From: a bacterium
Lineage (GTDB): Bacteria; Bacteroidota; Rhodothermia; Rhodothermales; UBA10348
Direction: 5' to 3'
Assembly: GCA_013204185.1 (NCBI GenBank)
Contig: JABMOI010000239.1
Coordinates: 1-34,486, forward strand
DNA: 34,486 bases
The notes under the pieces were generated by a model that worked only from the letters and a program-made list of their open reading frames with translations, did no database searches and was not told where the DNA came from. Shown here piece by piece: positions 2,428-28,039 of this stretch (its first letter is position 1; every line of letters begins with the position of its first letter). The translations under genes were made by a program, and so were the position numbers.

Positions 2428-4281
2428 ATGATTATTGTAGATAACCCAGGTCGGGATTCGTGGGAAGATCTGTGCCTTCGAAACGACTCTGACGCGCCCG
2501 ACATCACTGAGATTGTGGCTGGTATTCTGGCCGATGTCATTTCAAATGGGGATGAAGCGCTCATTCGCCTCACTCACAAATTTGATGGCGTTACGCTCGC
2601 GTCCTTATCGGTACCGACCGCAGGCGCAACCGTGCCTCCCGAATTGGAGGAAGCAATCTTAGTGGCAAGCCGAAATATTACGGCCTTTCACCGCGCCCAG
2701 AAGGAGTCCGTCGTTGAAATTGAGACATCCCCTGGGATTCAGTGTTGGCGCAAATCTGTAGGGATTGAGCGGGTCGGTTTATACGTGCCCGGTGGCTCCG
2801 CCCCTTTGTTTTCGACCGTCCTGATGCTGGGCATTCCGGCGCAACTTGCAGGTTGTTCTGAAATCGTTCTGTTCACTCCGCCGCAAAAAGACGGCTCGGT
2901 GCATCCAGCTATTCTGTTTGCAGCCAATCAGGCCGGGATTACAGAAGTCGTGCCGGTCGGTGGCGCTCAAGCTATTGCCGCAATGGCCTACGGCACGGAA
3001 ACCATTCAGCCAGTCGACAAGATTTTCGGCCCGGGAAATCAGTGGGTGAATGAAGCCAAGAAATTAGTATCAGCGGATTCCGTGGCCATCGACCTTCCGG
3101 CCGGCCCAACGGAGGTCGCTCTACTCATTGACGACACCGCAAATCTCGAGTTTGTAGCCGCCGACATGTTGGCCCAGGCTGAGCACGACACCGTGAGTAA
3201 TGTTTTTGTTGTGGCCGTTGGAGAAGTCAACGAAAGAGAGTTAACAAGCCGCGTTGCCGATCAATTAGCTTCGCTACCGAGGGCAGATATCGCCCAAAAA
3301 GTTGTTGAACGAGCCCGAATCGTCAAAGTATCGTCTGTTGGAGATGGGATTGACCTCGTCAATATGTACGCCGCCGAGCACCTCATCATCCAAATGCATC
3401 ACGCAGAAGTGATCGCGGAACGGATTGTGCACGCCGGTTCGGTATTTATTGGGACATGGACGCCGGAATCTCTTGGGGACTACGCCTCGGGCACCAACCA
3501 CACGCTTCCTACGAATGGATCTGCACGGGCTTTTTCGGGCGTATCACTAGACTCCTTCGTACGGAAAATCACATTTCAGCGCGCCTCCCAAGCGGGACTT
3601 CAAGGCCTTGGTCCCCACGTTTCAGTGATGGCACGGGCCGAAGAATTAGTAGGTCACGCGCGAGCCGTTGAACTCCGATTGGGCGCAGATCCTGCTGACC
3701 TTTCCCGAACGGGATTTGTGCGGCGCACCACAAACGAAACAGACATTTCTGTTTTGATCGATTTAGATGGAAGTGGGCGGGCGAACTGCGAAACAGGCCT
3801 CGGCTTTTTCGACCATATGTTGGACCAAATTGCGCGTCATTCCGGAATGGATTTGAGCGTTCGGTGCGATGGCGATCTCGAAGTAGATGAGCATCACACC
3901 ATCGAGGACACCGCGATTGCGCTTGGTGAGGCCTTTGCTAAAGCGATTGGGAATAAAAAAGGAATCGGACGCTACGGCTTTACATCTCCGATGGACGATG
4001 CCTTGGCTCAGGTGGCGCTCGATCTGTCTGGGCGTAGCTGGTTGGTTTGGGATGTCGAGCTGAAGCGCGAACGAGTTGGGGATGTGCCAACAGAAATGTT
4101 CAGCCATTTCTTTAAATCCTTCTGCGACGGCGCAAAAGCAAACATCAACATATCGGCCCGCGGAGAGAATGAACACCACATTGTGGAGTCCATTTTTAAA
4201 GGGTTTGCCCGGGCGCTCGGCATGGCCATCGCGCCAACTGGCAACCCGGATATTCTACCGTCAACTAAAGGGTCGCTGTAA
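2428..4281 (+). CDS. hisD-hisB: Fused histidinol dehydrogenase / imidazoleglycerol-phosphate dehydratase
   Basis: This single 617-residue frame carries two enzymes of the histidine pathway. Residues 1 to about 420 are HisD, which oxidises histidinol to histidine: [27 protein letters not shown] (zinc ligands Gln and His), YAAEHLII (catalytic Glu-His), [11 protein letters not shown] and the C-terminal [14 protein letters not shown]. From about residue 428 the protein is the IGP dehydratase part of HisB (step 6), with both manganese motifs, [16 protein letters not shown] and [14 protein letters not shown]. No HAD phosphatase domain is present, so histidinol-phosphate phosphatase must be encoded elsewhere. 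In most operons hisC separates hisD and hisB; here the linker is under ten residues. All key residues seem intact in both halves. Confidence 0.93.
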
Positions 4282-4332: not shown

Positions 4333-4914
4333 ATGTCTGTAGCCATTCTCAAATACAACGCCGGCAACGTGCAGTCCGTCCTGTTTGCGATGAAACGCCT
4401 CGGAGTGGAGGCGCAGGTCACGAACGATCACGACGAGCTTCGCGCCGCCAGCCATGTCATTATTCCAGGTGTGGGCGAAGCGGGATCGGCCATGGCTTAC
4501 TTTCGGGAGCACGGCTTGGACACGCTCATTCCAACACTAAAGCAGCCTGTGCTGGGTATTTGTCTTGGACTTCAGGTAATGTGTGAGCACTCAGAAGAAG
4601 CCGATACGCCGTGCCTCGGTATCTTTCCTCATTCTGTTCGTCGCTTTTCTGGACCAGAGAAAGTCCCACAGGTTGGCTGGAATACAGTGGAGCACAACGG
4701 CTTAGGATTGTACAAGGGCATCGAGGGTCCGTGCTTTATGTATTACGTCCACAGCTACTACGCAGAGTTGGGACCTGCGCAAACTGGATCTTCGAAATAC
4801 ATCGTTCCATTCTGCGCGTCAATTTCCAAGGACAATTTCCACGCAGTCCAGTTTCATCCTGAAAAGAGCGCTGATGCCGGGCAGACGCTGCTTGAGAACT
4901 TCCTGGCTCTGTAA
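4333..4914 (+). CDS. hisH: Imidazole glycerol phosphate synthase, glutaminase subunit
   Basis: HisH hydrolyses glutamine and passes ammonia to HisF, which makes IGP and AICAR. The 193-residue class I glutamine amidotransferase has nucleophile Cys77 in PVLGICLGLQ and the catalytic His175/Glu177 in QFHPEKS, plus the N-terminal YNAGNVQSV and oxyanion-strand PGVGEAGSAM. Length is typical. It follows hisD-hisB by 51 bases on the same strand and is the last his gene here; its obligate partner hisF and also hisA are outside the window. Confidence 0.95.
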   Translation: MSVAILKYNAGNVQSVLFAMKRLGVEAQVTNDHDELRAASHVIIPGVGEAGSAMAYFREHGLDTLIPTLKQPVLGICLGLQVMCEHSEEADTPCLGIFPHSVRRFSGPEKVPQVGWNTVEHNGLGLYKGIEGPCFMYYVHSYYAELGPAQTGSSKYIVPFCASISKDNFHAVQFHPEKSADAGQTLLENFLAL

Positions 4915-14033: not shown

Positions 14034-14136
14034 CGTCACATATGACGACTTACATAACGAAGCGGAACAAATCTTCTTATTCGCCATAAGTGACGTATTA
14101 TAGGCTGTTATAACCTTTTATTCGACACATATGGCG
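14034..14136 (+). promoter_or_regulatory. Three palindromic hipB operators, CGnCAnnnnTGnCG
   Basis: CGTCACATATGACG (14034-14047), CGCCATAAGTGACG (14082-14095) and CGACACATATGGCG (14123-14136) share the symmetrical consensus CGnCA-N4-TGnCG. The second and third also share a TTATTCG left flank. The last overlaps the hipB start codon (14131), so binding could block both transcription and initiation. AT-rich DNA between them (TATTATAGG, GTTATAACC) probably holds the promoter. The pattern differs from the TATCC-N8-GGATA site of E. coli HipB. Confidence 0.65.
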
Positions 14137-14487
14137 ACTAATGACGATGCAGACGGATATAGAAGCGACGATGCTGTACTTATGGAGTTCGGCTCGAGAT
14201 TGAGCGCGTTACGCCTTATGCGAGACATGACCCAAGCTCAGCTCGCCCATGAAGCTGGAATTTCTAAACGTACTTTGGAGCGTATTGAAGCGGGTAAATC
14301 GGCTCAGATCACAAGCTATGTCAGGGTCCTGAGGACTTTAAATTTGCTCAATCGTCTGGAGAACGTGCTACCTGCACCGCAACTCGGGCCTATGGATTTA
14401 TTGCAACATGCAGGCAAGTTTCCACAGCGCGCTAGAGGAAGCCAGAACCAATCTGAAAAACCATGGACGTGGGGTGAGGACCAATGA
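14131..14487 (+). CDS. hipB: HipB-like XRE-family antitoxin/repressor
   Basis: This 118-residue protein has an XRE helix-turn-helix (LRLMRDMTQAQLAHEAGISK, then RTLERIEAG) at about 30-55, and a short C-terminal extension. HipB binds operators and masks HipA. It overlaps hipA by four bases (ATGA), showing translational coupling. Three palindromic sites upstream, one on its own start codon, suggest autorepression. Confidence 0.85.
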   Translation: MATNDDADGYRSDDAVLMEFGSRLSALRLMRDMTQAQLAHEAGISKRTLERIEAGKSAQITSYVRVLRTLNLLNRLENVLPAPQLGPMDLLQHAGKFPQRARGSQNQSEKPWTWGEDQ

Positions 14488-15788
14488 GCACACCCGTCGC
14501 TGTTCGCCTGTGGGGTAGCACCATTGGCGCCGTCCACCAAGCGCCAAACACCGACTACTACACATTTCAGTACGATCCCCAGTTTGCGCGAAGCGGTATA
14601 GAAGTAGCACCGCTTGTTATGCCACTTGCACCCCACCCCTATGCGTTTCCGAACCTTTCCAATCGGAGTTTTGCTGGCTTACCTGGACTACTTTCGGATT
14701 CTCTTCCCGACTATTTCGGAAATGCCCTAATCGATGCATGGCTTGCAAGACAAGGCAGAGCCCCTAGGAGCTTTAGTGCATTGGAGCGACTTTGTTATGT
14801 AGGAACCCGAGGCATGGGAGCGTTAGAATATCATCCCATAATCGGCCCCCAACCAGATGTATCTCAGCTGATTGAAGTCGAAGCGCTCGTAGAACTGGCT
14901 GGTCGAATTCTGGATGAACGGCAAAACCTGTCGCTGAATGCCAATGAAGAGGATGATGCTGGAATATTGGCCCAATTGCTTCGGGTCGGTACGTCGGCCG
15001 GTGGAGCCAGGGCAAAGGCATTGATTGCGTGGAACCCCAAGACCCGCGAAGTTCGATCCGGCCAGATTGAAAACGATTCTGATTATGAATACTGGATCCT
15101 AAAATTTGATGGCGTTGTGCGTTCAAGTGATACGCTACTTGCCGACACTTTAGGATTCGGTGCCATTGAGTACGCCTACTATTTGATGGCCCGAGAGGCT
15201 GGCATCACCATGTCGGAATGCCAACTCATGGAAGAAAATGGCCGTCGCCATTTTATGACCCGCCGCTTCGACCGAACTGAAAGTGGCGAAAAACTACATA
15301 TGCTTTCTTTGGGAGGAATGGCCCACTACGATTTCAATCTCGCAGGTGCGTATAGCTATGAGCAGGCATTGAGAGTGCTTCGCAGACTCCAATTGCCCAT
15401 GTCTTCCATCGAAGAACAATATCGAAGAATGGTGTTCAACATCATGGCTAGAAACCAGGATGATCACGTTAAAAACATTGCCTTTCTGATGGATAAGCGA
15501 GGGAAATGGACCCTCTCCCCGGCATTCGACCTAACCTACTCATACAACCCGTCTGGAGATTGGACATCAAGCCATCAAATGACGGTAAACGGCAAACGAG
15601 ACCATTTTACATTGGAAGACCTAAAGGCCATAGCTGAAGGCGCATCCATGAAGCGAGGAAAAGCTACCGAAATTGTTGAACAGGTCCACGCAGCTGTTTC
15701 ATGCTGGAAGGACTTCTTCCAGACAGCCCAAGTAGATGAGCTGCAGGCCCAAAAGATTGGAGCAACGCTTCGGTTGGACCTGTTATAA
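14484..15788 (+). CDS. hipA: HipA-family Ser/Thr kinase toxin
   Basis: This 434-residue protein has the HipA N-subdomain (about 60-120; LLSDSLPDYFGNALIDAW, YVGTRGMGALEY), a Gly-rich loop with Ser171 in RVGTSAGGARAK matching the autophosphorylated serine loop, the catalytic block N324-Q-D-D-H-V-K-N331, and AFDL (347-350), which holds the metal-binding Asp. E. coli HipA phosphorylates glutamyl-tRNA synthetase and induces persistence; the target here is unknown. All kinase residues seem intact. It is coupled to hipB by a four-base overlap. Confidence 0.92.
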   Translation: MSTPVAVRLWGSTIGAVHQAPNTDYYTFQYDPQFARSGIEVAPLVMPLAPHPYAFPNLSNRSFAGLPGLLSDSLPDYFGNALIDAWLARQGRAPRSFSALERLCYVGTRGMGALEYHPIIGPQPDVSQLIEVEALVELAGRILDERQNLSLNANEEDDAGILAQLLRVGTSAGGARAKALIAWNPKTREVRSGQIENDSDYEYWILKFDGVVRSSDTLLADTLGFGAIEYAYYLMAREAGITMSECQLMEENGRRHFMTRRFDRTESGEKLHMLSLGGMAHYDFNLAGAYSYEQALRVLRRLQLPMSSIEEQYRRMVFNIMARNQDDHVKNIAFLMDKRGKWTLSPAFDLTYSYNPSGDWTSSHQMTVNGKRDHFTLEDLKAIAEGASMKRGKATEIVEQVHAAVSCWKDFFQTAQVDELQAQKIGATLRLDLL

Positions 15789-18569: not shown

Positions 18570-19655
18570 CTATCCGACTTGAGGTGGCTCGTGAGTCATC
18601 ATATTTGAGGATAAATCGTCCGAAACTTGTTGACCCAGCCCATCCTTGTTGAAACGTGTTTTAGTTAGCTCCTCTGGGTTGAAGCCGTCAGGCAGCTTAC
18701 CCAAATTACACACAGCTTCTCCAGGGCCAATCGCTGGCAAACTCGTCATCCCAATCACGATCCCATCAAAAGGAGCTTTTAACGTCTTGTGCTCGCGCCC
18801 TAACAAGGTCGTATTCGTGATCAATGGCTGACCTTTTACGACCAAGTCCCCTGGGCTGATATGAAATTGCATGAATCCACCATGGTCCGCCCTGATCCAC
18901 TTCGACGTTTCTATCGTCATCTGAAAGGCCGGCGGCTCGTATTCTCCCGCGAGCATATTCAGACTTCGTAGTACGTTTTTCACCCCTTTCGTGGCAGATT
19001 TTACGATTCCTGGCTCTACTTTCCACACTTCGCCGCCTTCCATAATAATGGTCGGGCAGCCTGCTTTTGTGGCCTCGCGTCGAAATGAACCAACTGGTCC
19101 CTTGCCATTTAGAATTACTTCTATTCCGAATGCCTTGGCTAGCTTTCTAACCTTGGGGTTGGATAGATCGCCGCGCACGTTCGGATAATTGGTGCGCCGA
19201 ATTGCTGCCGTGTGCAGGTCAATACCGTAGTCACAGCGCGAAACAATCTCATCGAAAATGATCCGGGCCATGCGGCTTGCCAGACTTCCTTTCATGGATC
19301 CAGGAAAGGAACGGTTCAGGTCCCGCCGATCAGGCAAGTATCGGTCAAAACGATCAAATCCGAGCAGGTTTAAGACCGGAACCAGAATAACCGTCCCTGA
19401 CGTTAACTTAAACGTTGGGTCCTGAATCAGTTCGCGAATGGCTCCTGTTCCATTAATTTCATCACCATGCAGCGCTGCCGTAACAAAAACAACGGGGCCT
19501 TCTTTCTCTGCGCGTTGGATTTGAATAGGAATCCGCACAGTCATGCTGCTATAGCTCTCGCCAATAGCTAGCGCCACTTCCTTCGTTTCTCCCGGTAGAA
19601 TCGACTCACCAAACCAGTCATCAACTGGTTTTCGTTTACGCAGCTTTGTGGTCAT
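18570..19655 (-). CDS. AstE/AspA-like zinc deacylase (succinylglutamate desuccinylase family)
   Basis: This 361-residue protein is in the M14-related AstE/aspartoacylase family. Zinc ligands are H63 and E66 in LHGDEINGTG, and the third His in YGIDLHTAAIRR; DRRDLNRSFPG is the substrate-binding block. A C-terminal beta-rich, biotinyl-like part (GDLVVKGQPLITNTTLLGRE, KAPFDGIVIGM) is typical. These enzymes hydrolyse N-acyl or amide bonds of acidic amino acids. It starts six bases after the RimK-like gene, so it may trim what that ligase adds; this is inference. Confidence 0.85.
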   Translation of the reverse strand: MTTKLRKRKPVDDWFGESILPGETKEVALAIGESYSSMTVRIPIQIQRAEKEGPVVFVTAALHGDEINGTGAIRELIQDPTFKLTSGTVILVPVLNLLGFDRFDRYLPDRRDLNRSFPGSMKGSLASRMARIIFDEIVSRCDYGIDLHTAAIRRTNYPNVRGDLSNPKVRKLAKAFGIEVILNGKGPVGSFRREATKAGCPTIIMEGGEVWKVEPGIVKSATKGVKNVLRSLNMLAGEYEPPAFQMTIETSKWIRADHGGFMQFHISPGDLVVKGQPLITNTTLLGREHKTLKAPFDGIVIGMTSLPAIGPGEAVCNLGKLPDGFNPEELTKTRFNKDGLGQQVSDDLSSNMMTHEPPQVG

Positions 19656-19661
19656 ATCAGA

Positions 19662-20906
19662 TTATTCGGATGAGTCCGTCTTCGATTGTTTGTGATGGTG
19701 TGAATCGATGGTATCGACTGTTCCAAGTGAATCGGGAAGGGTTCGAATGACCGCTCGTTTTCTCCGTTTAGTTTTGGCTGGGATTAGATGTCTCATCAAA
19801 TCCAGCTTGCCAAAACACAGGAGTCTGTCGCCGGGCTCGAATACGCGTTGTTCATTGGGGTTTGGGATGACGGTTGAACCCCGGTAGAGCGTCAATACGT
19901 TTATATCCTTCTGTCGCAGACCTGATTCAGCAATGGTTTTGCCGAGGTAAGCAGAACCTTCTGGTATGTGAATCTCGGCGACCCCGTAACCTTGGCTAAC
20001 GGTAAGTCGTTGTCGCAGATCTATTTCCGGGAAATCTACTTGGGCTGCGATATAGTCAATGATGGCTCCCGCAATGTCTAGCTGGGTACATCGCTCAATG
20101 CCTTCCAATCCTGGTGAGGAATTGACCTCCACAATCTGTGGCCCATCTTTTCCTTCAAGAAGGTCCACCCCTGCGATACGAAGACCCATAATCTGAGCCG
20201 CTCTTACGGCCGTCTCCGCATACAATGGATCGAGCTCGACCTGTTCGGTAAGCCCTCCTCGGTGTACGTTGCTTCTAAATTCCTGTCCCTGCGCGACTCT
20301 TCGCATGGCGGCCACAACGCGGTCGCCCACAACAAACGCGCGAACGTCTCGGCCTTTACTTTCGGCTACAAACTTTTGAATGAGCACGTTTTGCTTCTGG
20401 CTCTGTAGTAGCTCGATTATTGCCTCGGCAGACTTGACCGTTTCAGCAAGCAGAACCCCAATTCCTTGCGTTCCTTCTAGTAATTTGATGATGACGGGCG
20501 CCCCACCTACTCGGGCAATAGCCGGCAATACGTCCTTTTTATCGCGAACAAACGTGGTTTGAGGAATCCCAATTTCATGCCGGCTCAAGATCTGAAGGCT
20601 TCGAAGTTTGTCCCTAGAGTTGGTGATACCTGCGCTGGAGTTGGCGCAAAAGACATCCATTTGGGCAAATTGCCGCACAACCGCCGTTCCGAAATGAGAA
20701 ATGGAAGCGCCAATACGTGGAAGCACGGCATCGTAATGCGAAAGTTGTTTTTGCCTGAAGTACAAGTCGGGCTCTCCCGGCCTAAGGTCAATGGCAAACT
20801 TGACGGTATTGAGGACCTTAACCTTGTGCCCGCGCTCAAGCGCTGCTTCTTTAAGTCGCTGTGTGCTATAGCAGTGGAGGTTTCGGGATAAGATCGCAAG
20901 TTTCAT
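19662..20906 (-). CDS. rimK: RimK-type alpha-L-glutamate ligase with C-terminal RCK/TrkA-C domain
   Basis: This 414-residue ATP-grasp enzyme begins MKLAILSRNLHCYSTQRLKEAA, as RimK does; ATG at 20904-20906 is chosen for that. ATP-grasp landmarks are VIIKLLEGTQGIGVLLA, VLIQKFVAESKGRDVRAFVVGD, and the metal site AGVDLLEGKDGPQIVEVNSSPGLEGIE. RimK adds glutamates to the C-terminus of ribosomal protein S6. Residues about 307-375 (YGVAEIHIPEGSAYLGKTIA to EPGDRLLCFGKLDLMRHL) are an RCK-C domain, normally a nucleotide or ion sensor in transporters. The tail is basic, then His/Ser-rich. It sits between a RimB-like protease and an AstE-like hydrolase. Confidence 0.88.
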   Translation of the reverse strand: MKLAILSRNLHCYSTQRLKEAALERGHKVKVLNTVKFAIDLRPGEPDLYFRQKQLSHYDAVLPRIGASISHFGTAVVRQFAQMDVFCANSSAGITNSRDKLRSLQILSRHEIGIPQTTFVRDKKDVLPAIARVGGAPVIIKLLEGTQGIGVLLAETVKSAEAIIELLQSQKQNVLIQKFVAESKGRDVRAFVVGDRVVAAMRRVAQGQEFRSNVHRGGLTEQVELDPLYAETAVRAAQIMGLRIAGVDLLEGKDGPQIVEVNSSPGLEGIERCTQLDIAGAIIDYIAAQVDFPEIDLRQRLTVSQGYGVAEIHIPEGSAYLGKTIAESGLRQKDINVLTLYRGSTVIPNPNEQRVFEPGDRLLCFGKLDLMRHLIPAKTKRRKRAVIRTLPDSLGTVDTIDSHHHKQSKTDSSE

Positions 20907-20967
20907 GGTTACCTTTGATTTGCACACGTGTCCTAGCTGCGCTCGCAACGAGGTTCAACTTGCGCCG

Positions 20968-21447
20968 TTATTGTTTAGTGGATGTTGCGGCCTTTAACCG
21001 AGCAGGCTTCCCTGCGTAATATGAACTCGAAGCGTCAACGAGAAAGCGACCTCTAAAGGCTTCCCGCCCGAGTAGCATGCGGAAACCCATTTCATCTCGC
21101 CTTGCTAGGGTCAATTCGATGGGCCAAGTCTTATTCAGAAGCGAAATTGCTGTTACAATGACAGGCCGAACAGACGACTTTCCACTTGAACTTCTGACCG
21201 AACGAAATTCCAGCACCTTGGCTTCAGTTTTTATGCCACCTGAACGGCTTCTCTGTTTGGGATGAATCTCGAATCGAACCCACGCGGAGCCATCCTTTTG
21301 AAACTCTTCCAGACCAAATACATGAAGGGAAGACGATCTAGCTCCCGTATCGACCTTAGCTTTGATCGCTGGTACGCCTAACTCAGGTAATTCAACCCAC
21401 TCTCGCCAGCCAAGGACCGGCAATTTGGATGAGCCAGATTTTTTCAT
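20968..21447 (-). CDS. RimB-like retropepsin-type protease
   Basis: This 159-residue protein belongs to the family often labelled ATP-dependent zinc protease (PF05618), RimB in Pseudomonas. It has VLGWREWVELPELGVPAIKA, then the aspartic-protease-like motif KVDTGARSSSLH, and GFRMLLGREAF with FLVDAS. The fold is retropepsin-like, so the old name is probably misleading. It heads the operon RimB-RimK-AstE, 61 bases before rimK. In Pseudomonas RimB modulates glutamate tailing of S6; a similar role here is inferred. Confidence 0.82.
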   Translation of the reverse strand: MKKSGSSKLPVLGWREWVELPELGVPAIKAKVDTGARSSSLHVFGLEEFQKDGSAWVRFEIHPKQRSRSGGIKTEAKVLEFRSVRSSSGKSSVRPVIVTAISLLNKTWPIELTLARRDEMGFRMLLGREAFRGRFLVDASSSYYAGKPARLKAATSTKQ

Positions 21448-21653: not shown

Positions 21654-22418
21654 CTATCTTGGCCGAATCGTGCCTAAACCTCCATCAACACCGATTATTT
21701 GCCCCGTCACCCAACCACTTCGGGTAGAGTCGAGCAGCCAATCGATCGCTTCTGCCACATCGTGGGGCTGCCCCAAGCGCCCGAGCGCATGCATCCCTTC
21801 TGAGTGTACGCGAGACGCTTCGTTTGATGTAATTTTAGCACTCATGGGGGTATCAACCAATCCGGGAGCAACGCAATTAACCCGAATGTTGCGCTGAGCA
21901 TACGTTGCTGCTGCGGAGAGCGTCAAGCCAGATACTCCTGCCTTTGCCGCTGCGATCGCTTCATGATTGACCAACCCAGTGCGAGCAACTGCGGACGAAC
22001 AGAGCACGATAGACCCTCCTGATTTATACATTGCTTTCGATGCACTTTTCACAGCAAAAAATGCTGAATCCAGGTTGAGCGCAATTGTCTCCCGATAGTC
22101 ATCAATCGAAGTTAAATGCGCAGGTTTCAACAAAATGGAACCGACACAATTGACTAAACCATCCAGCCGTCCAAACGTCGATATCGCGTGTGCCACAATC
22201 CCATCAACATCTTCGAACCGCGTGGCATCCATGGGCACGTAATGCGGCATTGCACCATATTGAGACCGTGTTTCCGTGGCAAGAGCGTGCAGCTTCTCTG
22301 AGTCTCTAGCTCCGAGTACCAGACTGGCGCCTCGCGCCGCTAATTTTCGAGTTAGGGCAGAGCCAATGCCGCCAGAGGCTCCAATTACAATGTATACAGG
22401 TGAAGTGACGTCCATCAT
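21654..22418 (-). CDS. SDR-family protein lacking the catalytic tyrosine
   Basis: This 254-residue Rossmann-fold protein has the NAD(P) loop GASGGIG (13-19), the NCVGS motif (90-94), N115, and Ser141/142. In the usual Tyr-x3-Lys position it reads I155-A-A-A-K159, so the catalytic Tyr is Ile, while K159 remains. The end WVTGQIIGVDGG is standard. It may be a non-catalytic sensor, or use another acid such as His152. It is 42 bases downstream of the cobalamin-binding regulator on the same strand, so is probably in its operon. Start may be either of two consecutive Met codons. Confidence 0.85.
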   Translation of the reverse strand: MMDVTSPVYIVIGASGGIGSALTRKLAARGASLVLGARDSEKLHALATETRSQYGAMPHYVPMDATRFEDVDGIVAHAISTFGRLDGLVNCVGSILLKPAHLTSIDDYRETIALNLDSAFFAVKSASKAMYKSGGSIVLCSSAVARTGLVNHEAIAAAKAGVSGLTLSAAATYAQRNIRVNCVAPGLVDTPMSAKITSNEASRVHSEGMHALGRLGQPHDVAEAIDWLLDSTRSGWVTGQIIGVDGGLGTIRPR

Positions 22419-22460: not shown

Positions 22461-23363
22461 TTAAGCGCCGTGAAACCACGAATAAAACGGATTAAGTGAC
22501 TGGAAAAACGCTTGATCGACGAAAGAATACTCAGTTGACATCGACCTATCGTCAGGCCTTGCCGCCCCTCCGCCTAGTGCCAACCGATATGGAGTCTGGT
22601 GGGAGTACATCCGATCAAGCAAGCTTATGATGGTCTGGGCTTCTGCCATTCCCGCAGGCGGAGTCATCGAAATACAAACGAGAGTTGCCCTGTGCTTCAC
22701 TTGTTGATCGGCAAACTCCTCTGTTGGAACGTTGAGTCCGAGATATATAACCGTCCATCCCGCCTCTTCAAGAGCCTTTCGAACCATCAGTGCCCCCAGC
22801 TCGTGTACTTCTGCTCGGGCACACCCCACGATAGCAACGTGCTCCTGTTCGTACGGTAACTTAGGTCCATTTAGACACCATCCAATCAGCGCGTCGCGGA
22901 GTACTCCGGTCATCCGATGTTCGTCGCCAATGGACAGCTTGCCTTCCGCATACTCTTTCCCAACCCTACTCATTACCGGACCAACCAGTCCATCGGCTAG
23001 CTGAGCGGCCGAAAAGCCTGAATTCCTCAACCAAGCCAACAATGCTATCAAATGGTTGGGCTTACGCTGAATGGTCCATTTAAAGAATATCTTTACCAGA
23101 GCCTCAAACGAGCCTCCATCAGTAGCTTTTTCAGTTCCGTCCCAGACTCGACCTGCCTCGCTTCCGAATGGGTCTAGAGCAAAAGCAACGTTGGCGGACT
23201 TAGCATAAGTAAGGAGGGCGTGAATAGGAATGCGTCTATGACCACCAGGCGTACTCCAGTACTCGAGCTGGTTCGAGTTACACCATCTTTTGATCGACGA
23301 CTCATGAACTCCCAGCAAATCCGAGGCCTGTCTCGTTGAAACGGCCGCTTCAAATTCGATCAT
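22461..23363 (-). CDS. MerR-type cobalamin-binding regulator (CarH/LitR-like)
   Basis: This 300-residue protein has a MerR-type winged HTH (about 9-55; STRQASDLLGVHESSIKRWC, then STPGGHRRIP), a four-helix cobalamin cap (about 85-165) and a Rossmann B12 domain (about 174-290). The lower-ligand motif is E185-V-H187-E-L-G190. CarH photoreceptors carry W-x9-E-H in the cap, the residue after W being the upper axial His. Here it is Y138-x9-E148-H149 with Ala139, so the Trp and upper-ligand His are missing. It may bind another cobalamin or sense something other than light. It is divergent from an ABC operon with shared promoter DNA. Confidence 0.85.
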   Translation of the reverse strand: MIEFEAAVSTRQASDLLGVHESSIKRWCNSNQLEYWSTPGGHRRIPIHALLTYAKSANVAFALDPFGSEAGRVWDGTEKATDGGSFEALVKIFFKWTIQRKPNHLIALLAWLRNSGFSAAQLADGLVGPVMSRVGKEYAEGKLSIGDEHRMTGVLRDALIGWCLNGPKLPYEQEHVAIVGCARAEVHELGALMVRKALEEAGWTVIYLGLNVPTEEFADQQVKHRATLVCISMTPPAGMAEAQTIISLLDRMYSHQTPYRLALGGGAARPDDRSMSTEYSFVDQAFFQSLNPFYSWFHGA

Positions 23364-23405
23364 AAAGAATGATTTAGACGATTTCGTTAATACACAGAGC
23401 AGGAA

Positions 23406-23460
23406 TTGACTCTATTACGTTCGTTGAAGTATACTTTGAACGATATTAACAATCAATATC
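23406..23460. promoter_or_regulatory. Face-to-face promoters sharing a palindromic -10
   Basis: On the plus strand TTGACT (23406-23411), 18 bases, TATACT (23430-23435). On the minus strand TTGATT (23451-23456), 17 bases, TATACT (23428-23433). Both -10 boxes lie in the palindrome AAGTATACTT (23427-23436), so only one polymerase can occupy the site at once. Outer TCGTT (23421-23425) and AACGA (23439-23443) nearly extend the symmetry. GATATT (23442-23447) and AATATC (23455-23460) form another inverted repeat. The regulator at 22461-23363 is the likely binder. Confidence 0.6.
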
Positions 23461-23569
23461 ATTCATTGCTAGTTAACAATTCGATCACAACTCATTAAAT
23501 GATCGTTTTTACATCTATCTTGATCTACTCAATCAATTGCCCATAAACGTTGTCCTTCACGGCAGTCAG

Positions 23570-24283
23570 ATGGAAACCAAAAAAGAACCTTTAGTACGCG
23601 TCTCGAACCTCACCAAGGTGTACCGCGAGGGCGAAACGGAACGAGTCGTGTTTAGCGGGATGAACCTAGATCTCCACCCAGGAGAACTGGTGGTGTTACT
23701 AGGACGAAGTGGATCAGGTAAAAGCACCCTATTGAACCTGATCAGCGGGATTGACGAGGCCACCACCGGTAAGATTTTTTTTGGTGAAGTCGAGCTAACG
23801 GCGCTTTCAGAGAACGACCGCACCCTGTTTCGCAGGGAATCGATTGGGATCATATTTCAGTCCTTTAACCTCATTCCGACTCTAACCGTTGCTGAGAACA
23901 TGCTCTTGCCGATGGAGCTCAACGGCCGGCTGTCTGAGGAGCGCCGTGCAAAAGCTTTGGGTGTGCTAGAGGAAGTCGGGTTGTTGAACAGACAAGACAG
24001 TTACCCGGACCGTCTTTCAGGTGGAGAACAGCAGCGGGTGGCGCTCGCCAGAGCGCTGGCGCACGAGCCCTTACTCATTCTAGCAGACGAGCCAACAGGT
24101 AATCTGGACCTCAAAACGGCAGATCAAGTCATGCAGATTCTGCACCGTCTGATCCACGACGAAAAACGGACCATGCTCATTGCGACGCATGACCGAGATA
24201 TTCTGAACCTCGCCGACCGGATACTGTCCTTGAAGGAAGGCGTTTTGACAGAAGTGAAGATCCAAGACATCGCAGGTCTTTAA
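23570..24283 (+). CDS. ABC transporter ATPase, LolD/MacB type
   Basis: This 237-residue ATPase has Walker [10 protein letters not shown], the Q-loop [14 protein letters not shown], signature [15 protein letters not shown], Walker [14 protein letters not shown] and the switch His in IATHD. The SFNLIP and TGNLD forms are typical of ATPases that serve FtsX-like permeases (LolD, MacB, FtsE). ATG at 23570 ([18 protein letters not shown]) is chosen; the frame opens earlier at a TTG. It leads a three-gene operon, 14 bases before the permease. Confidence 0.95.
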
Positions 24284-24297
24284 GGGAACGTACCATT

Positions 24298-26844
24298 ATG
24301 ACCACGCGCCTATTACGCCTTAGTAGTTTCCGGTATTTGTTGAAGCACCCGTTGTTGATGGCTCTCTCCATCCTCGGGGTCGCTCTTGGGGTAGCCGTGG
24401 TGGTTGCGATTGACCTCGCGAACACGAGCGCAACAGAGGCATTTCGGCTCTCTTCCGAAGCAGTAACTGGGCGTGCCACCCATTCAATTACTGGGTCTCG
24501 GGACCTCTTGGATGAAAGAGTCTATCGAGATCTTCGGCTGAATGGATCAATACGCGAAGCAGCTCCCATTATAGATGGATACGTTTCTGCTCCGGGGGAT
24601 CCGGGCAGAACACTTCAGGTGATAGGGGTTGATCCACTTGTTGAAGGCCCATTCCGAGCCTATACGGGAGCGGCGGACAGCGGGCTGGACCTCGGACAGT
24701 TTATGTCCGCAAGGCCGACCGGACTGTTATCTGCTTTTACCGCGACCAGCCTTGGCATCACCGAAGGCGATTCACTAGAGGTCGCGTTCGAAGGCAAACG
24801 GTTTGTGGTCTCGATTCTAGGTTTGATTAACTCAGAGTCCGAGCAAGCAGCACGCGCACTCGACAATGTGATGGTGGTCGATATTTCGACCGCTCAGAAC
24901 CTGTTGAGAATGGATGGCAAACTGAGCCGAGTTGAATTGATCATTCCAGATTCGGAGGGCGGTGCGTCTTTACTTCAGTCCATTGAGAACGTGCTTCCCG
25001 AAGGCGCTCAAATTGAACCATCAGCTTCAAAAACGGACACGCTGGCGCAAATGACACGCGCCTTTAGCCTCAATCTCGTGGCCCTGAGCCTCTTGGCCTT
25101 GGTTGTGGGCATGTTTTTGATTTACAACACGGTTACGTTTTCTATTGTCCAGCGAAGGGCCATGATTGGTCGATTGCGGGCGCTTGGGGTCACGCGTAGG
25201 GAAATATTCCAGCTGATTTTGGGCGAGGCGCTGCTCATTGGCACGCTAGGGACCATCTTGGGCCTTTTTGCTGGAGTTGCGCTTGGAACCGGCCTCGTGC
25301 AGTTGGTCACCCAAAGCATTAACGACCTGTATTATGTGGTTCGCGTACGATCCTTCGACGTGTCCCTTTGGAGCCTCGCTAAGGGAATGGCGCTGGGAAT
25401 TGGAGCCACTTTACTAGCCGCCATCCCTCCAGCACGCGAAGCCACTTCAGCCCCCGCAAGCTCGGTCATGCGCCGCTCGGAAGAAGAAACCAAGCTATAC
25501 CGAATCATCCCTAAACTTGTCTGGATTTCGCTGGCAACCGCCGTGGCTGCTTTTGGTTTGCTCGCTCTTCCTGGAAATAGCATTCCACTTAGTTATACGG
25601 CGCTCCTGCTCCTCATTTTGGCGTTCGCTGGCCTCACTCCCGGCGCTGTGATTCTGTTTACGCGCTGGTTTAAGCCAGTATTAAGTCTTTTTGGCGGCGT
25701 TGTGGGCAGAATGGCCGCCCAGGGAACGGTGACCTCACTTAGCCGCACGGCAGTCGCCATTGCCTCGCTCATGATTGCCATTTCAGCAACCATCGGGGTC
25801 GGCGTGATGGTGAATAGCTTCCGCTCGACCGTCGAAGTCTGGCTTTCATACACCTTGCAAGCAGACGTATACATTTCGCCGCCAGGGCTCGTGTTTAGGC
25901 GTAACGATGCAACGGTCTCGCCCGACGTGGAGGCAGTTTTGAGAAATGCGCCTGGGGTCGCAGCAGCTTATTCTGTTCGGACCGCTGAAGTCACCGCCGG
26001 CGGCAGACCTTCAGATCTGATTGTAGTAGAGCCCGGCCCGCAACGAGATCAAGGCACTCGTTTCAAGGAGGGTGGCCGAATCTGGGGTGACGCTGATGAA
26101 CTAGAAAAGGTGGTCGTCTCAGAGCCGTATAGTTTTAGATATGATGTTCACGTAGGAGATTCTATTGACATCGCGACTGACAGCGGGCTCAAGACCTTCT
26201 CGGTTGGCGGAGTCTACTATGATTATGGGTCAGACCTAGGCGCCATCATGATGAGCCGAAAAACATATGAGGCCCACTTTGACGATCGAGGCATTTCGGG
26301 CATTTCTCTGTACGTAGAGCCTGGAAAAGATGTTGAAGAAGTGATTCGTTCCCTTCGAATAGGGCTCGAGGGTAAACAGGAAGTCCTGATGCGATCCAAC
26401 CGTTCGCTCAGAGAAGCTTCATTGGACGTGTTTGATCGCACGTTTACTGTCACTATTGTCCTGCGGCTTCTTGCAGTCCTTGTCGCATTTATCGGCGTCT
26501 TGAGCGCACTGATGGCCCTTCAACTGGAGCGGGCTCGAGAACTGGCCGTGATGCGGGCCAACGGCCTAACTCCCCGGCAAGTGTGGAAATACGTGACCCT
26601 CCAGACTGGGTTTATGGGGTGGATGGCTGGACTTTTTTCTATACCCCTGGGGCTGGTGCTCGCCTACGTACTGATTTTTGTGATCAACCAGCGCTCCTTT
26701 GGGTGGACGCTGCAAATGGAGTGGTCCCCTGCCATTTTGATTCAAGCGGTGCTGTTGGCGCTCGTCGCCGCGCTTTTGGCAGGTGTCTATCCGGCATGGA
26801 AAATGTCTCGAGCTAAACCAGCGGAGGCGCTTAGAGATGAATAA
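24298..26844 (+). CDS. FtsX-like ABC permease
   Basis: This 848-residue permease has an N-terminal membrane helix (LMALSILGVALGVAVVVAI), a large periplasmic domain, three membrane helices (LVALSLLALVVGMFLIYNTV, then two after the coupling helix), a middle set of helices, a second periplasmic domain and a final three-helix FtsX block (IVLRLLAVLVAFIGVLSALM to ALLAGVYPAWKMSRAKPAEAL). Two FtsX domains in one chain suit a transporter with two ATPase copies. Such permeases move lipoproteins or lipids, or act as mechanotransmitters. The stop overlaps the next start by eight bases, so the AttH-like lipoprotein is coupled. Confidence 0.93.
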   Translation: MTTRLLRLSSFRYLLKHPLLMALSILGVALGVAVVVAIDLANTSATEAFRLSSEAVTGRATHSITGSRDLLDERVYRDLRLNGSIREAAPIIDGYVSAPGDPGRTLQVIGVDPLVEGPFRAYTGAADSGLDLGQFMSARPTGLLSAFTATSLGITEGDSLEVAFEGKRFVVSILGLINSESEQAARALDNVMVVDISTAQNLLRMDGKLSRVELIIPDSEGGASLLQSIENVLPEGAQIEPSASKTDTLAQMTRAFSLNLVALSLLALVVGMFLIYNTVTFSIVQRRAMIGRLRALGVTRREIFQLILGEALLIGTLGTILGLFAGVALGTGLVQLVTQSINDLYYVVRVRSFDVSLWSLAKGMALGIGATLLAAIPPAREATSAPASSVMRRSEEETKLYRIIPKLVWISLATAVAAFGLLALPGNSIPLSYTALLLLILAFAGLTPGAVILFTRWFKPVLSLFGGVVGRMAAQGTVTSLSRTAVAIASLMIAISATIGVGVMVNSFRSTVEVWLSYTLQADVYISPPGLVFRRNDATVSPDVEAVLRNAPGVAAAYSVRTAEVTAGGRPSDLIVVEPGPQRDQGTRFKEGGRIWGDADELEKVVVSEPYSFRYDVHVGDSIDIATDSGLKTFSVGGVYYDYGSDLGAIMMSRKTYEAHFDDRGISGISLYVEPGKDVEEVIRSLRIGLEGKQEVLMRSNRSLREASLDVFDRTFTVTIVLRLLAVLVAFIGVLSALMALQLERARELAVMRANGLTPRQVWKYVTLQTGFMGWMAGLFSIPLGLVLAYVLIFVINQRSFGWTLQMEWSPAILIQAVLLALVAALLAGVYPAWKMSRAKPAEALRDE

Positions 26845-28039
26845 AATTCGCATCAGTTCGATTGTAGGAGTGTGCCTCTTGGGCGCCATGATTTGGATCA
26901 CCGGGTGCCAAGATCCTGTTAATGGGGTTGCGGAACGGTCCTCGGTAGATCTAAACACAGCCATGTCGGGCGACACCACGGGGTATGCGCGAGCACGTCC
27001 CGGGACAGAACTGGTGTTTCCCGCAGACTACGGGCCTCATCCTGCATTCAAGACCGAGTGGTGGTACTTCACCGGAAACCTCGACACGGAGTCGGGACGT
27101 CAGTTCGGGTACGAACTCACCATCTTTCGTTCTGCACTGGCTCCCGAAACGCCCGGCAACCTCGGCGAGGCGGAAGCTCAGTCAAAATGGTCTTCCAACC
27201 AGCTCTACATGGGCCATTTTTCGCTGGCGGATTTGGGCGGCGGCCAAGGGGGCAACGACCAAGGGAACAGCGGCCAAGGTTCTGAACCTCAGTTCTATTC
27301 CTTTGAGCGGTTCAGTCGAGGAGCCCTCGATCTGGCCGGCTCGCAGGCCTCTCCGTTTCGAGTATGGCTGGAGGATTGGTCCATGGATGGCGGTCCAGAC
27401 GACCTGTTCCCCTTGCGCCTTCGCGCTCAAGAGGGAGACATAGCCCTTGACCTAACCTTATCATCCTTAAAACCCATTGTCCTGCAAGGAGATAAAGGTT
27501 TCGACCGAAAAGGAGCGGACGAGGGAAACGCCTCGCATTACTACTCTTTTACTCGACTTGAGACCTCTGGTACCATTGGCATCGGCGGCGATCTAATGCC
27601 TGTTTCCGGAACGAGCTGGAAGGATCACGAGTGGAGCACGAGCGCCTTGGATGAAAATCAGGCCGGATGGGATTGGTTTTCTCTTCAACTGTCTGACAAT
27701 CGGGAGATCATGTTTTACGTACTCCGCGAAAAGGATGGGGGGTCTGGCCAGTTCACCAACGGCATGTTGGTGCAGTCTGATGGCAGCTATTCGCCTCTTT
27801 CTCGGGAAGACGTCTCCATTCGGGTTTTAGACTCGTGGAAAAGTCCGCATAGCGGCGCCACGTATCCGTCAGGATGGGAAATGTCCATTCCTGCACACGA
27901 CATCGAACTAACCATCACTCCCTTGATGCAAGATCAAGAACTCAACGCCACCATTCGATATTGGGAAGGCGCCGTGTCAATTAAGAGCAACACGGACGTG
28001 ACGGGGCGTGGTTATGTAGAGCTAACGGGATACAAATAG
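26837..28039 (+). CDS. AttH/CrtC-like lipocalin-type lipoprotein
   Basis: This 400-residue protein has a lipoprotein signal ending WITG-C24. Its core HPAFKTEWWYFTGNL, followed by FGYELTIFR, and later GTSWKDHEWSTSAL, belongs to the AttH / carotenoid 1,2-hydratase-like fold (two lipocalin-like barrels). Carotenoid hydratase activity is unlikely without crt genes. The ABC ATPase, FtsX permease and AttH arrangement is recurrent, and the lipoprotein may receive or process a lipid extracted by the transporter; this is inference. A Gly/Gln/Asn-rich insertion (about 134-150; GGGQGGNDQGNSGQG) coincides with imperfect CCAAGG DNA repeats. ATG at 26837 is chosen for the signal peptide. Confidence 0.85.
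   Translation: MNKIRISSIVGVCLLGAMIWITGCQDPVNGVAERSSVDLNTAMSGDTTGYARARPGTELVFPADYGPHPAFKTEWWYFTGNLDTESGRQFGYELTIFRSALAPETPGNLGEAEAQSKWSSNQLYMGHFSLADLGGGQGGNDQGNSGQGSEPQFYSFERFSRGALDLAGSQASPFRVWLEDWSMDGGPDDLFPLRLRAQEGDIALDLTLSSLKPIVLQGDKGFDRKGADEGNASHYYSFTRLETSGTIGIGGDLMPVSGTSWKDHEWSTSALDENQAGWDWFSLQLSDNREIMFYVLREKDGGSGQFTNGMLVQSDGSYSPLSREDVSIRVLDSWKSPHSGATYPSGWEMSIPAHDIELTITPLMQDQELNATIRYWEGAVSIKSNTDVTGRGYVELTGYK

Follow-up and report, generated by a model that had tools for sequence, protein, structure and literature searches.

The P0001 locus

The window (the whole stretch of DNA analyzed here, 34,486 nucleotides) contains a gene for a CarH-like regulator, P0001, which occupies positions 22461..23363 of the minus strand and encodes a protein of 300 amino acids (ATG at 23363, stop codon at 22461). 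This open reading frame and five residues of its product, Y138, A139, E148, H149 and H187, had been pointed out in an earlier note made from the sequence, which gave no strand, and both were confirmed from the codons and by alignment. The CarH-like architecture proposed there was borne out by Pfam and by fold matches. An HTH_17/excisionase-type DNA-binding domain (residues 9-56; 23196..23339, minus strand; 35.2 bits, cut-off 27) is followed by a four-helix B12 cap (B12-binding_2, residues 104-159; 22887..23054, minus strand; 24.6 bits, cut-off 23) and a Rossmann B12-binding domain (PF02310, residues 177-274; 22542..22835, minus strand; 55 bits, cut-off 32.1). The excisionase model TIGR01764 (excise) also scored above its threshold on the DNA-binding domain (29.8; cut-off 28.8). 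The MerR family (PF00376) was considered for this domain and rejected in favor of the HTH_17 type, as its score of 13.6 bits was under the cut-off of 28.2. A cobalamin adenosyltransferase (PF01923) is encoded in the same genome.

A gene for a short-chain dehydrogenase (SDR, by Pfam; 21654..22418, minus strand) lies 42 bp downstream of P0001 and is its probable co-transcribed partner. SDRs of this group (45-65% identity) recur beside other CarH-like regulators. The SDR of the window shares 64-65% identity with its counterparts in the photolyase cassettes of the genus (genomes G026 and G022) and 59-64% with SDRs beside five other CarH-like genes (L074 and L107-L110), and less with the remaining ones. 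It is the only link of P0001 to such cassettes: near P0001 the window has neither a photolyase or rhodopsin gene nor a cluster for carotenoid biosynthesis. On the other side, 173 bp (23364-23536) separate P0001 from a divergent set of genes for an ABC ATPase, an FtsX/MacB permease and a CrtC-type lipocalin (23537..28039, plus strand; Pfam), which, by adjacency only, are a possible second target of the regulator.

Other genes of the window were recorded in passing. Zn_protease, RimK (with a TrkA_C tail) and AstE/AspA-type genes stand in a row behind the SDR (18570-21447, minus strand). A 617-residue ORF (2428-4281, plus strand), which by eye we take to be HisD (histidinol dehydrogenase) fused to HisB (imidazoleglycerol-phosphate dehydratase), is flanked by ORFs that are presumably hisG-like (1541-2425) and hisH-like (4333-4914), again by eye. 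Also by eye, a helix-turn-helix ORF followed by a 434-residue ORF (14131-15788, plus strand) is presumably a HipB/HipA-like pair.

Cobalamin pocket of P0001 and its relatives

In the alignment with Thermus CarH, Y138 and A139 (22947..22952, minus strand) fall on W131 and H132, G135 is kept, and the interval from G135 to E148 is ungapped. Where Thermus CarH has W-H-x8-E-H, P0001 reads Y138-A139-x8-E148-H149. E148-H149 (22917..22922, minus strand) are the equivalent of CarH E141-H142, and H187 (22803..22805, minus strand), within AEVHELG, occupies the position of the lower axial ligand. P0001 also contains the complete lower-axial motif ExHxxG...SxT...GG (E185-V-H187-E-L-G190, S232-M-T234 and G264-G265). 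The view of the earlier note that the lower ligand is retained was therefore upheld by this alignment, and cobalamin binding by P0001, which it had thought probable, is plausible from the sequence. Its observation that P0001 has no residue for the bis-His light state also stood, A139 being at the place of CarH His132.

Relatives of P0001 were collected from 27 genomes of its family (E-value 1e-20; 15 with a match), 114 of its order (1e-10; 35 with a match) and 395 of its phylum (1e-25; 21 with a match, overlapping with the order set). These searches yielded 54 places in the order and 7 more in the phylum; after three partial or fragmentary sequences were dropped, 58 genes from 42 genomes remained. 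Rows left out of the counts were L014 (same contig as G022:C87), G007:C28 (partial, reading W-A) and the fragments G022:C86 and G022:C104. One relative comes from the Bacteroidetes MAG UBA7368, and plasmid records contained no relative at an E-value of 1e-15. The homologs align over the full length of P0001, the nearest (L071, 52% identity, reading Y-F) being from another family of the order, and all five genes of the P0001 type that genus g1 contributed to the set have Tyr followed by a small residue. The residue pattern of P0001 is therefore not due to chance.

Trp occupies its CarH place in 40 relatives, Tyr in 15, His in 2 and Cys in 1, leaving 18 Trp-less genes. The upper His of CarH is absent from 56 of the 58, including all 40 Trp-keepers; the two genes that have it (L043 and L075) are Trp-less. 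In contrast to these variable places, E-H, GxxxP and GG are present in all 58 relatives and the lower His in 55. When CtMerR and Thermus thermophilus CarH (TtCarH) were added (60 rows), only six positions were invariant: E148, H149, G209, P213, G264 and G265. Among the 18 Trp-less proteins, which have a mean identity of 37%, E-H, H187, GxxxP and GG are all invariant. Eleven core members of this group have Tyr at the Trp place, with spacing and G135 kept; in six rhodopsin-linked members from genus g4 the place is varied (Y, Y, H, Y, C, H) and G135 is lost. At the sequence level, R156 is a marker of the Trp-less branch, with Arg in 18/18 Trp-less and 2/40 Trp-keeping proteins; TtCarH also has Arg there. 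Trp-less and Trp-keeping regulators occur together in 10 of the 42 genomes. Of the five genus-g1 genes, only P0001 carries Ala (A184) at this Gly position and stands without the photolyase cassette.

A converse variant was seen in L107, L109 and L110, in which W-x9-EH is kept in the cap and the lower-axial His is replaced by Tyr (DPY instead of the usual DxH). All three genes adjoin an SDR, and L110 also a photolyase.

The earlier note had raised the prospect of another Trp/His pair, for example Trp111, in the same pocket. Such a pair was sought by inspecting the columns of W96, H104, W111 and W162 of P0001, and no conserved replacement was found. W111 and W162 are each Trp in 1 of the 11 core Trp-less sequences, and H104 is His in 1 of the 11. 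The W96 column has Trp in 9 of these 11 sequences, but the same is true of 15 of 18 core Trp-keepers, and W96 is therefore not a substitute for W131.

Sequence signatures and structural neighbors

The motif W-x9-EH in the cap is described in the consulted portion of a review as conserved in all CarH homologues studied and, with the lower-axial motif ExHxxG-SxT/V-GG, as defining CarH (PMC8156234); P0001 keeps E148-H149 and has Y138 at the Trp place. The NCBIfam equivalog model TransRegCarH gave 41.7 bits, against a cut-off of 400. Because the Trp and the MerR domain are both lacking, P0001 is, judged from its sequence, not a CarH by published definitions. With regard to the SignatureFinder motifs for a light-responsive CBD, as given in the excerpted text of PMC11796333, P0001 has EH (E148-H149) and GxxxP (G209-L-N-V-P213), and reads G135-K-E-Y138 for GxxW and A184-E-V-H187 for GxxH. 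The SignatureFinder pattern would therefore pass over P0001. The Gly of GxxH is present in 8/18 Trp-less and 18/40 Trp-keeping relatives.

CtMerR-like homology extends over the DNA-binding, cap and Rossmann domains of P0001. The best PDB chains were those of CtMerR (8JBS/8JBT; phmmer E-value 9e-26, residues 7-240, covering the DNA-binding and B12 parts), and Thermus CarH was far behind by sequence, with best E-values of 1e-4 (H132A entry) and 0.0006 (5C8A). An AlphaFold model of P0001, built from two sequences only (mean pLDDT 65.5, pTM 0.64), likewise had CtMerR as its best fold match (Foldseek E-value 5e-10; Z 18.9 for the B12 part, over 204 residues with 24% identity), followed by photocobilins, the AppA SCHIC domain and TtCarH (Z 13.8). 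The adenosyl or ribose side is where E-H makes contact in CarH, CtMerR and photocobilins.

According to the accessible sections of PMC11796333, CtMerR binds AdoCbl and responds to green light, changing from a tetramer in the dark to a monomer in the light. It has Arg at the His132 place, and in the anaerobic light structure Glu, not His, nears the cobalt (PMC11796333). Loss of the upper His alone is thus compatible with photoreception. The step in the earlier note from the missing His to a sensor of something other than light is therefore not supported; besides CtMerR, all 40 Trp-keeping relatives are without this His. On the other hand, the H132A variant of TtCarH mostly stays tetrameric in light, as reported in the part of PMC10442372 consulted.

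Evolutionary history

A tree of the 60 rows was built without residues 137-140. The Trp state requires two changes on this tree, corresponding to one or two independent pairs, and a single clade of all 18 Trp-less genes is compatible with the data (AU test, p 0.238). Trp was thus lost once or twice, and the loss was kept across several families of the order. The Trp-less paralogs on contigs C168 and C195 of P0001's own genome differ by dN 0.11 and dS 0.65, and sequence divergence of this kind indicates that purifying selection acts on the Trp-less relatives; dS to P0001 is saturated, so this evidence concerns the relatives and not P0001 itself.

Contig C168 (L015) shares 98-99% DNA identity with G026:C215 over parts and 87% across its photolyase gene, and it lacks the SDR of the G026 cassette. 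A gene of the window has 68% identity to its G026 counterpart. On these grounds, C168 may be a foreign contig in a fragmented assembly, and the Trp-less paralogs in this genome may therefore be two, not three.

Gene neighborhoods

Neighbors were scored within 6 kb, with families named by Pfam. Those that recur near Trp-less genes are rhodopsin, blh, lycopene cyclase, photolyase, PTPS, SOUL and SDR. The two groups of regulators differ in crtI, which lies beside 25/40 Trp-keeping and 0/18 Trp-less genes, and in rhodopsin (8/18 Trp-less vs 0/40 Trp-keeping) and blh (6/18 vs 0/40). A PTPS/SOUL/DUF429 cassette accompanies 4/18 Trp-less genes, all in one clade of genus g1, and 0/40 Trp-keepers; a photolyase is found with three of these four cassettes. 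Photolyase as such (4/18 vs 9/40) and SDR (4/18 vs 8/40) adjoin both kinds. Fisher tests gave p 2e-6 for crtI and p 2e-5 for rhodopsin; these values are not independent evidence, since with one or two changes of the Trp state on the tree, the links with neighbors amount to one or two historical associations and not eighteen. For the Trp-less gene L073, looser clustering joined a 922-residue ORF about 3 kb away to the CrtI cluster; by stricter tblastn this ORF is not crtI.

The same division is seen in P0001's own genome. A Trp-keeper on contig C269 has crtI, crtB and idi as neighbors, whereas the Trp-less genes adjoin PTPS-SOUL-DUF429-photolyase (C168), SOUL-DUF429 (C195) and SDR (the window). 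L071, the nearest relative of P0001, sits between a photolyase gene and a divergent rhodopsin-lycopene cyclase-blh set. No cobalamin uptake or synthesis gene was found among the named neighbors of the 18 Trp-less genes. A rhodopsin search of P0001's own genome and that of one relative gave no match, with a control that was likewise silent, so this result does not demonstrate absence.

Two further arrangements were noted. The regulators L043, L049-L054 and L071 are divergent to rhodopsin, mostly with lycopene cyclase and blh (e.g., L049:7660-11185), and are candidate dedicated regulators of retinal phototrophy; a survey of the open literature gave nothing pertinent to a link between CarH-like regulators and rhodopsin. 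In addition, genus CarH-like cassettes contain fusion ORFs of 809-813 residues (L015:2595-5024 and L037:907-3348, both minus strand), with a photolyase/cryptochrome-like N-terminus (PF00875 and weak FAD_binding_7) and a C-terminus of the FAD amine-oxidase type (NAD_binding_8, Amino_oxidase).

Candidate operator

The heptamer TGAACGA/TCGTTCA was the most enriched within 300 bp upstream of the regulators in both Trp groups. It occurred 13 times in 16 Trp-less regions (1.0 expected from dinucleotide shuffles; L037 and L016 dropped) and 23 times in 40 Trp-keeping regions (2.4 expected), although some upstream regions come from related genes and the counts are thus not independent draws. With the near-copies L037 and L085 dropped, its density was 2.10 per kb upstream of the regulators, compared with 0.16 in the remainder of these loci and 0.13 in front of 356 other genes. 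One or more exact copies precede 10/17 Trp-less and 15/39 Trp-keeping genes, whereas the exact site is absent from 7/17 and 24/39, respectively.

Upstream of P0001, TGAACGA (23437..23443, plus strand) forms one arm of an imperfect inverted repeat (23437-23465) and, on the motif enrichment, is a candidate operator half-site. It falls in the spacer of a sigma-70-like promoter match for P0001 (23428..23456, minus strand), which is a consensus match only. The window has six copies of the heptamer, about the chance level, and the one in the P0001 promoter is not significant alone. A motif common to both Trp groups is the expected outcome if the sensor changed and the mode of DNA recognition did not, as in CarA and CarH of Myxococcus, which use one operator according to the consulted part of PMC9304148.

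Proposed mechanism and alternatives

We propose, at roughly even chances, that P0001 is a cobalamin-dependent, light-released repressor of photoprotection genes, of the CtMerR kind, which belongs to the Trp-less branch and works without a bis-His state. Of the parts of this model, AdoCbl binding is predicted with good confidence and a response to light with somewhat less, the balance leaning slightly in its favor. In the dark, P0001 would bind AdoCbl base-off with H187 as the lower ligand, E148-H149 would hold the adenosyl group, and Tyr138 would stack at the place of CarH Trp131. The holo-oligomer would occupy sites with TGAACGA in the divergent promoter of P0001 and thereby silence P0001, the SDR next to it and perhaps the ABC-lipocalin genes on the other side; the oligomer, the repression and these targets are what we infer. 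Light would then cleave the Co-C bond, and the oligomer would be released with no bis-His state being formed, as in CtMerR. For the branch as a whole, we suggest more tentatively that the Trp-less, upper-His-less proteins could form a distinct class of AdoCbl photoreceptors that switch rhodopsin phototrophy and photolyase/pterin repair cassettes, with carotenoid synthesis left to Trp-keeping paralogs of the same genomes; members of such a class would be turned down by the published signatures W-x9-EH and GxxW.

The strongest rival, which we consider rather unlikely, is that the regulators of the Trp-less branch act as dimers without B12 to repress light-stress genes, and that a different signal (an antirepressor, a singlet oxygen pathway or a separate photoreceptor) lifts this repression, with E-H and His kept by structure or descent. 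Its model is Myxococcus CarA, described in the excerpts of PMC9304148 as a B12-independent dimer that has lost the Trp and four flanking residues and keeps E-H and the B12 motif; the absence of Trp was taken to explain this independence (PMC9304148, PMC8156234, as far as consulted). Invariance of E-H is therefore not proof of AdoCbl use. The heptamer common to both Trp groups recalls the CarA/CarH operator, the occurrence of both kinds of regulator in 10/42 genomes fits as well, and class II LitR of Pseudomonas, which works via a LOV protein without B12 (PMC9758184, in the part seen), provides a further B12-free precedent. The six genus-g4 rhodopsin-linked members, with their varied Trp place and lost G135, fit this explanation better than P0001 does. 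However, the 11 core members differ from CarA in keeping the spacing, G135 and a stackable Tyr, the length from G135 to E148 in P0001 is unchanged, and E-H, H187, GxxxP and GG have remained invariant throughout the Trp-less group despite its divergence.

A cobalamin-status or redox sensor, as the earlier note had proposed, would show little preference among cobalamins and report their supply or the redox state of Co. A bis-His state is indeed impossible in P0001, a cap residue smaller than Trp might relax the preference for adenosyl, and CarH photochemistry itself depends on the redox state of Co and on O2 (PMC10442372, in the portion consulted). Yet E-H, which touches the adenosyl side, does not vary, and the Trp-less genes lack cobalamin uptake or synthesis genes among their named neighbors; instead, rhodopsin and photolyase neighborhoods suggest that the regulon has to do with light and not with cobalamin or redox homeostasis, and make this reading improbable. 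Least probable of all, and by a good measure remote, is a decaying or neutral paralog: an additional copy that has diverged and is losing its sensor. The A184 and missing photolyase cassette that set P0001 apart in genus g1 would agree with decay, but its 300-residue frame is intact, it aligns over the full length at 52% identity with a gene of another family, and it retains every position that is invariant in the Trp-less group.

Implications

Textbook accounts of B12 photoreception center on the Trp of W-x9-EH and on the bis-His light state, and both serve to mine databases for photoreceptors. The Trp-less branch, with purifying selection, an otherwise invariant pocket and rhodopsin or photolyase nearby, makes the Trp requirement directly testable. 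If Trp is dispensable, a group of sensors for green light escapes such mining as it is now done, and the rhodopsin operons of bacteria acquire a candidate for a B12 light switch of their own. If Trp is needed, the branch would add a second example, independent of the first, of regulation without B12 in the manner of CarA.

Comparison with known systems

P0001 most resembles CtMerR (Chloracidobacterium thermophilum WP_157850694). Both have an HTH_17-like domain, a cap and a B12 domain, as well as E-H, the lower His and GxxxP, and both lack His where CarH has His132. CtMerR differs in keeping the Trp and the Gly of GxxH, where P0001 has Tyr138 and Ala184, and its photoresponse was measured, whereas that of P0001 is predicted. 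Class I CarH/LitR of Thermus thermophilus also shares the cap, the Rossmann B12 domain, E-H, the lower His and GxxxP with P0001; however, it has a MerR-type domain, Trp131 and His132 (for the bis-His light state), all of which P0001 is without.

Myxococcus xanthus CarA is similar to P0001 in having the B12 motif and E-H, no Trp, and a Trp-keeping paralog with a common operator or motif. It is of the MerR type and has lost the four flanking residues as well, whereas in P0001 the spacing is kept and Tyr is present. Class II LitR (Pseudomonas PplR/PmlR) is defined by the lack of a recognizable Rossmann B12 domain, which P0001 possesses (PF02310, 55 bits). Its regulon nevertheless resembles the gene cassettes around the Trp-less regulators, with light-induced photolyase, SDR, FAD oxidoreductase and pterin genes in Pseudomonas (PMC9758184, in the sections consulted).
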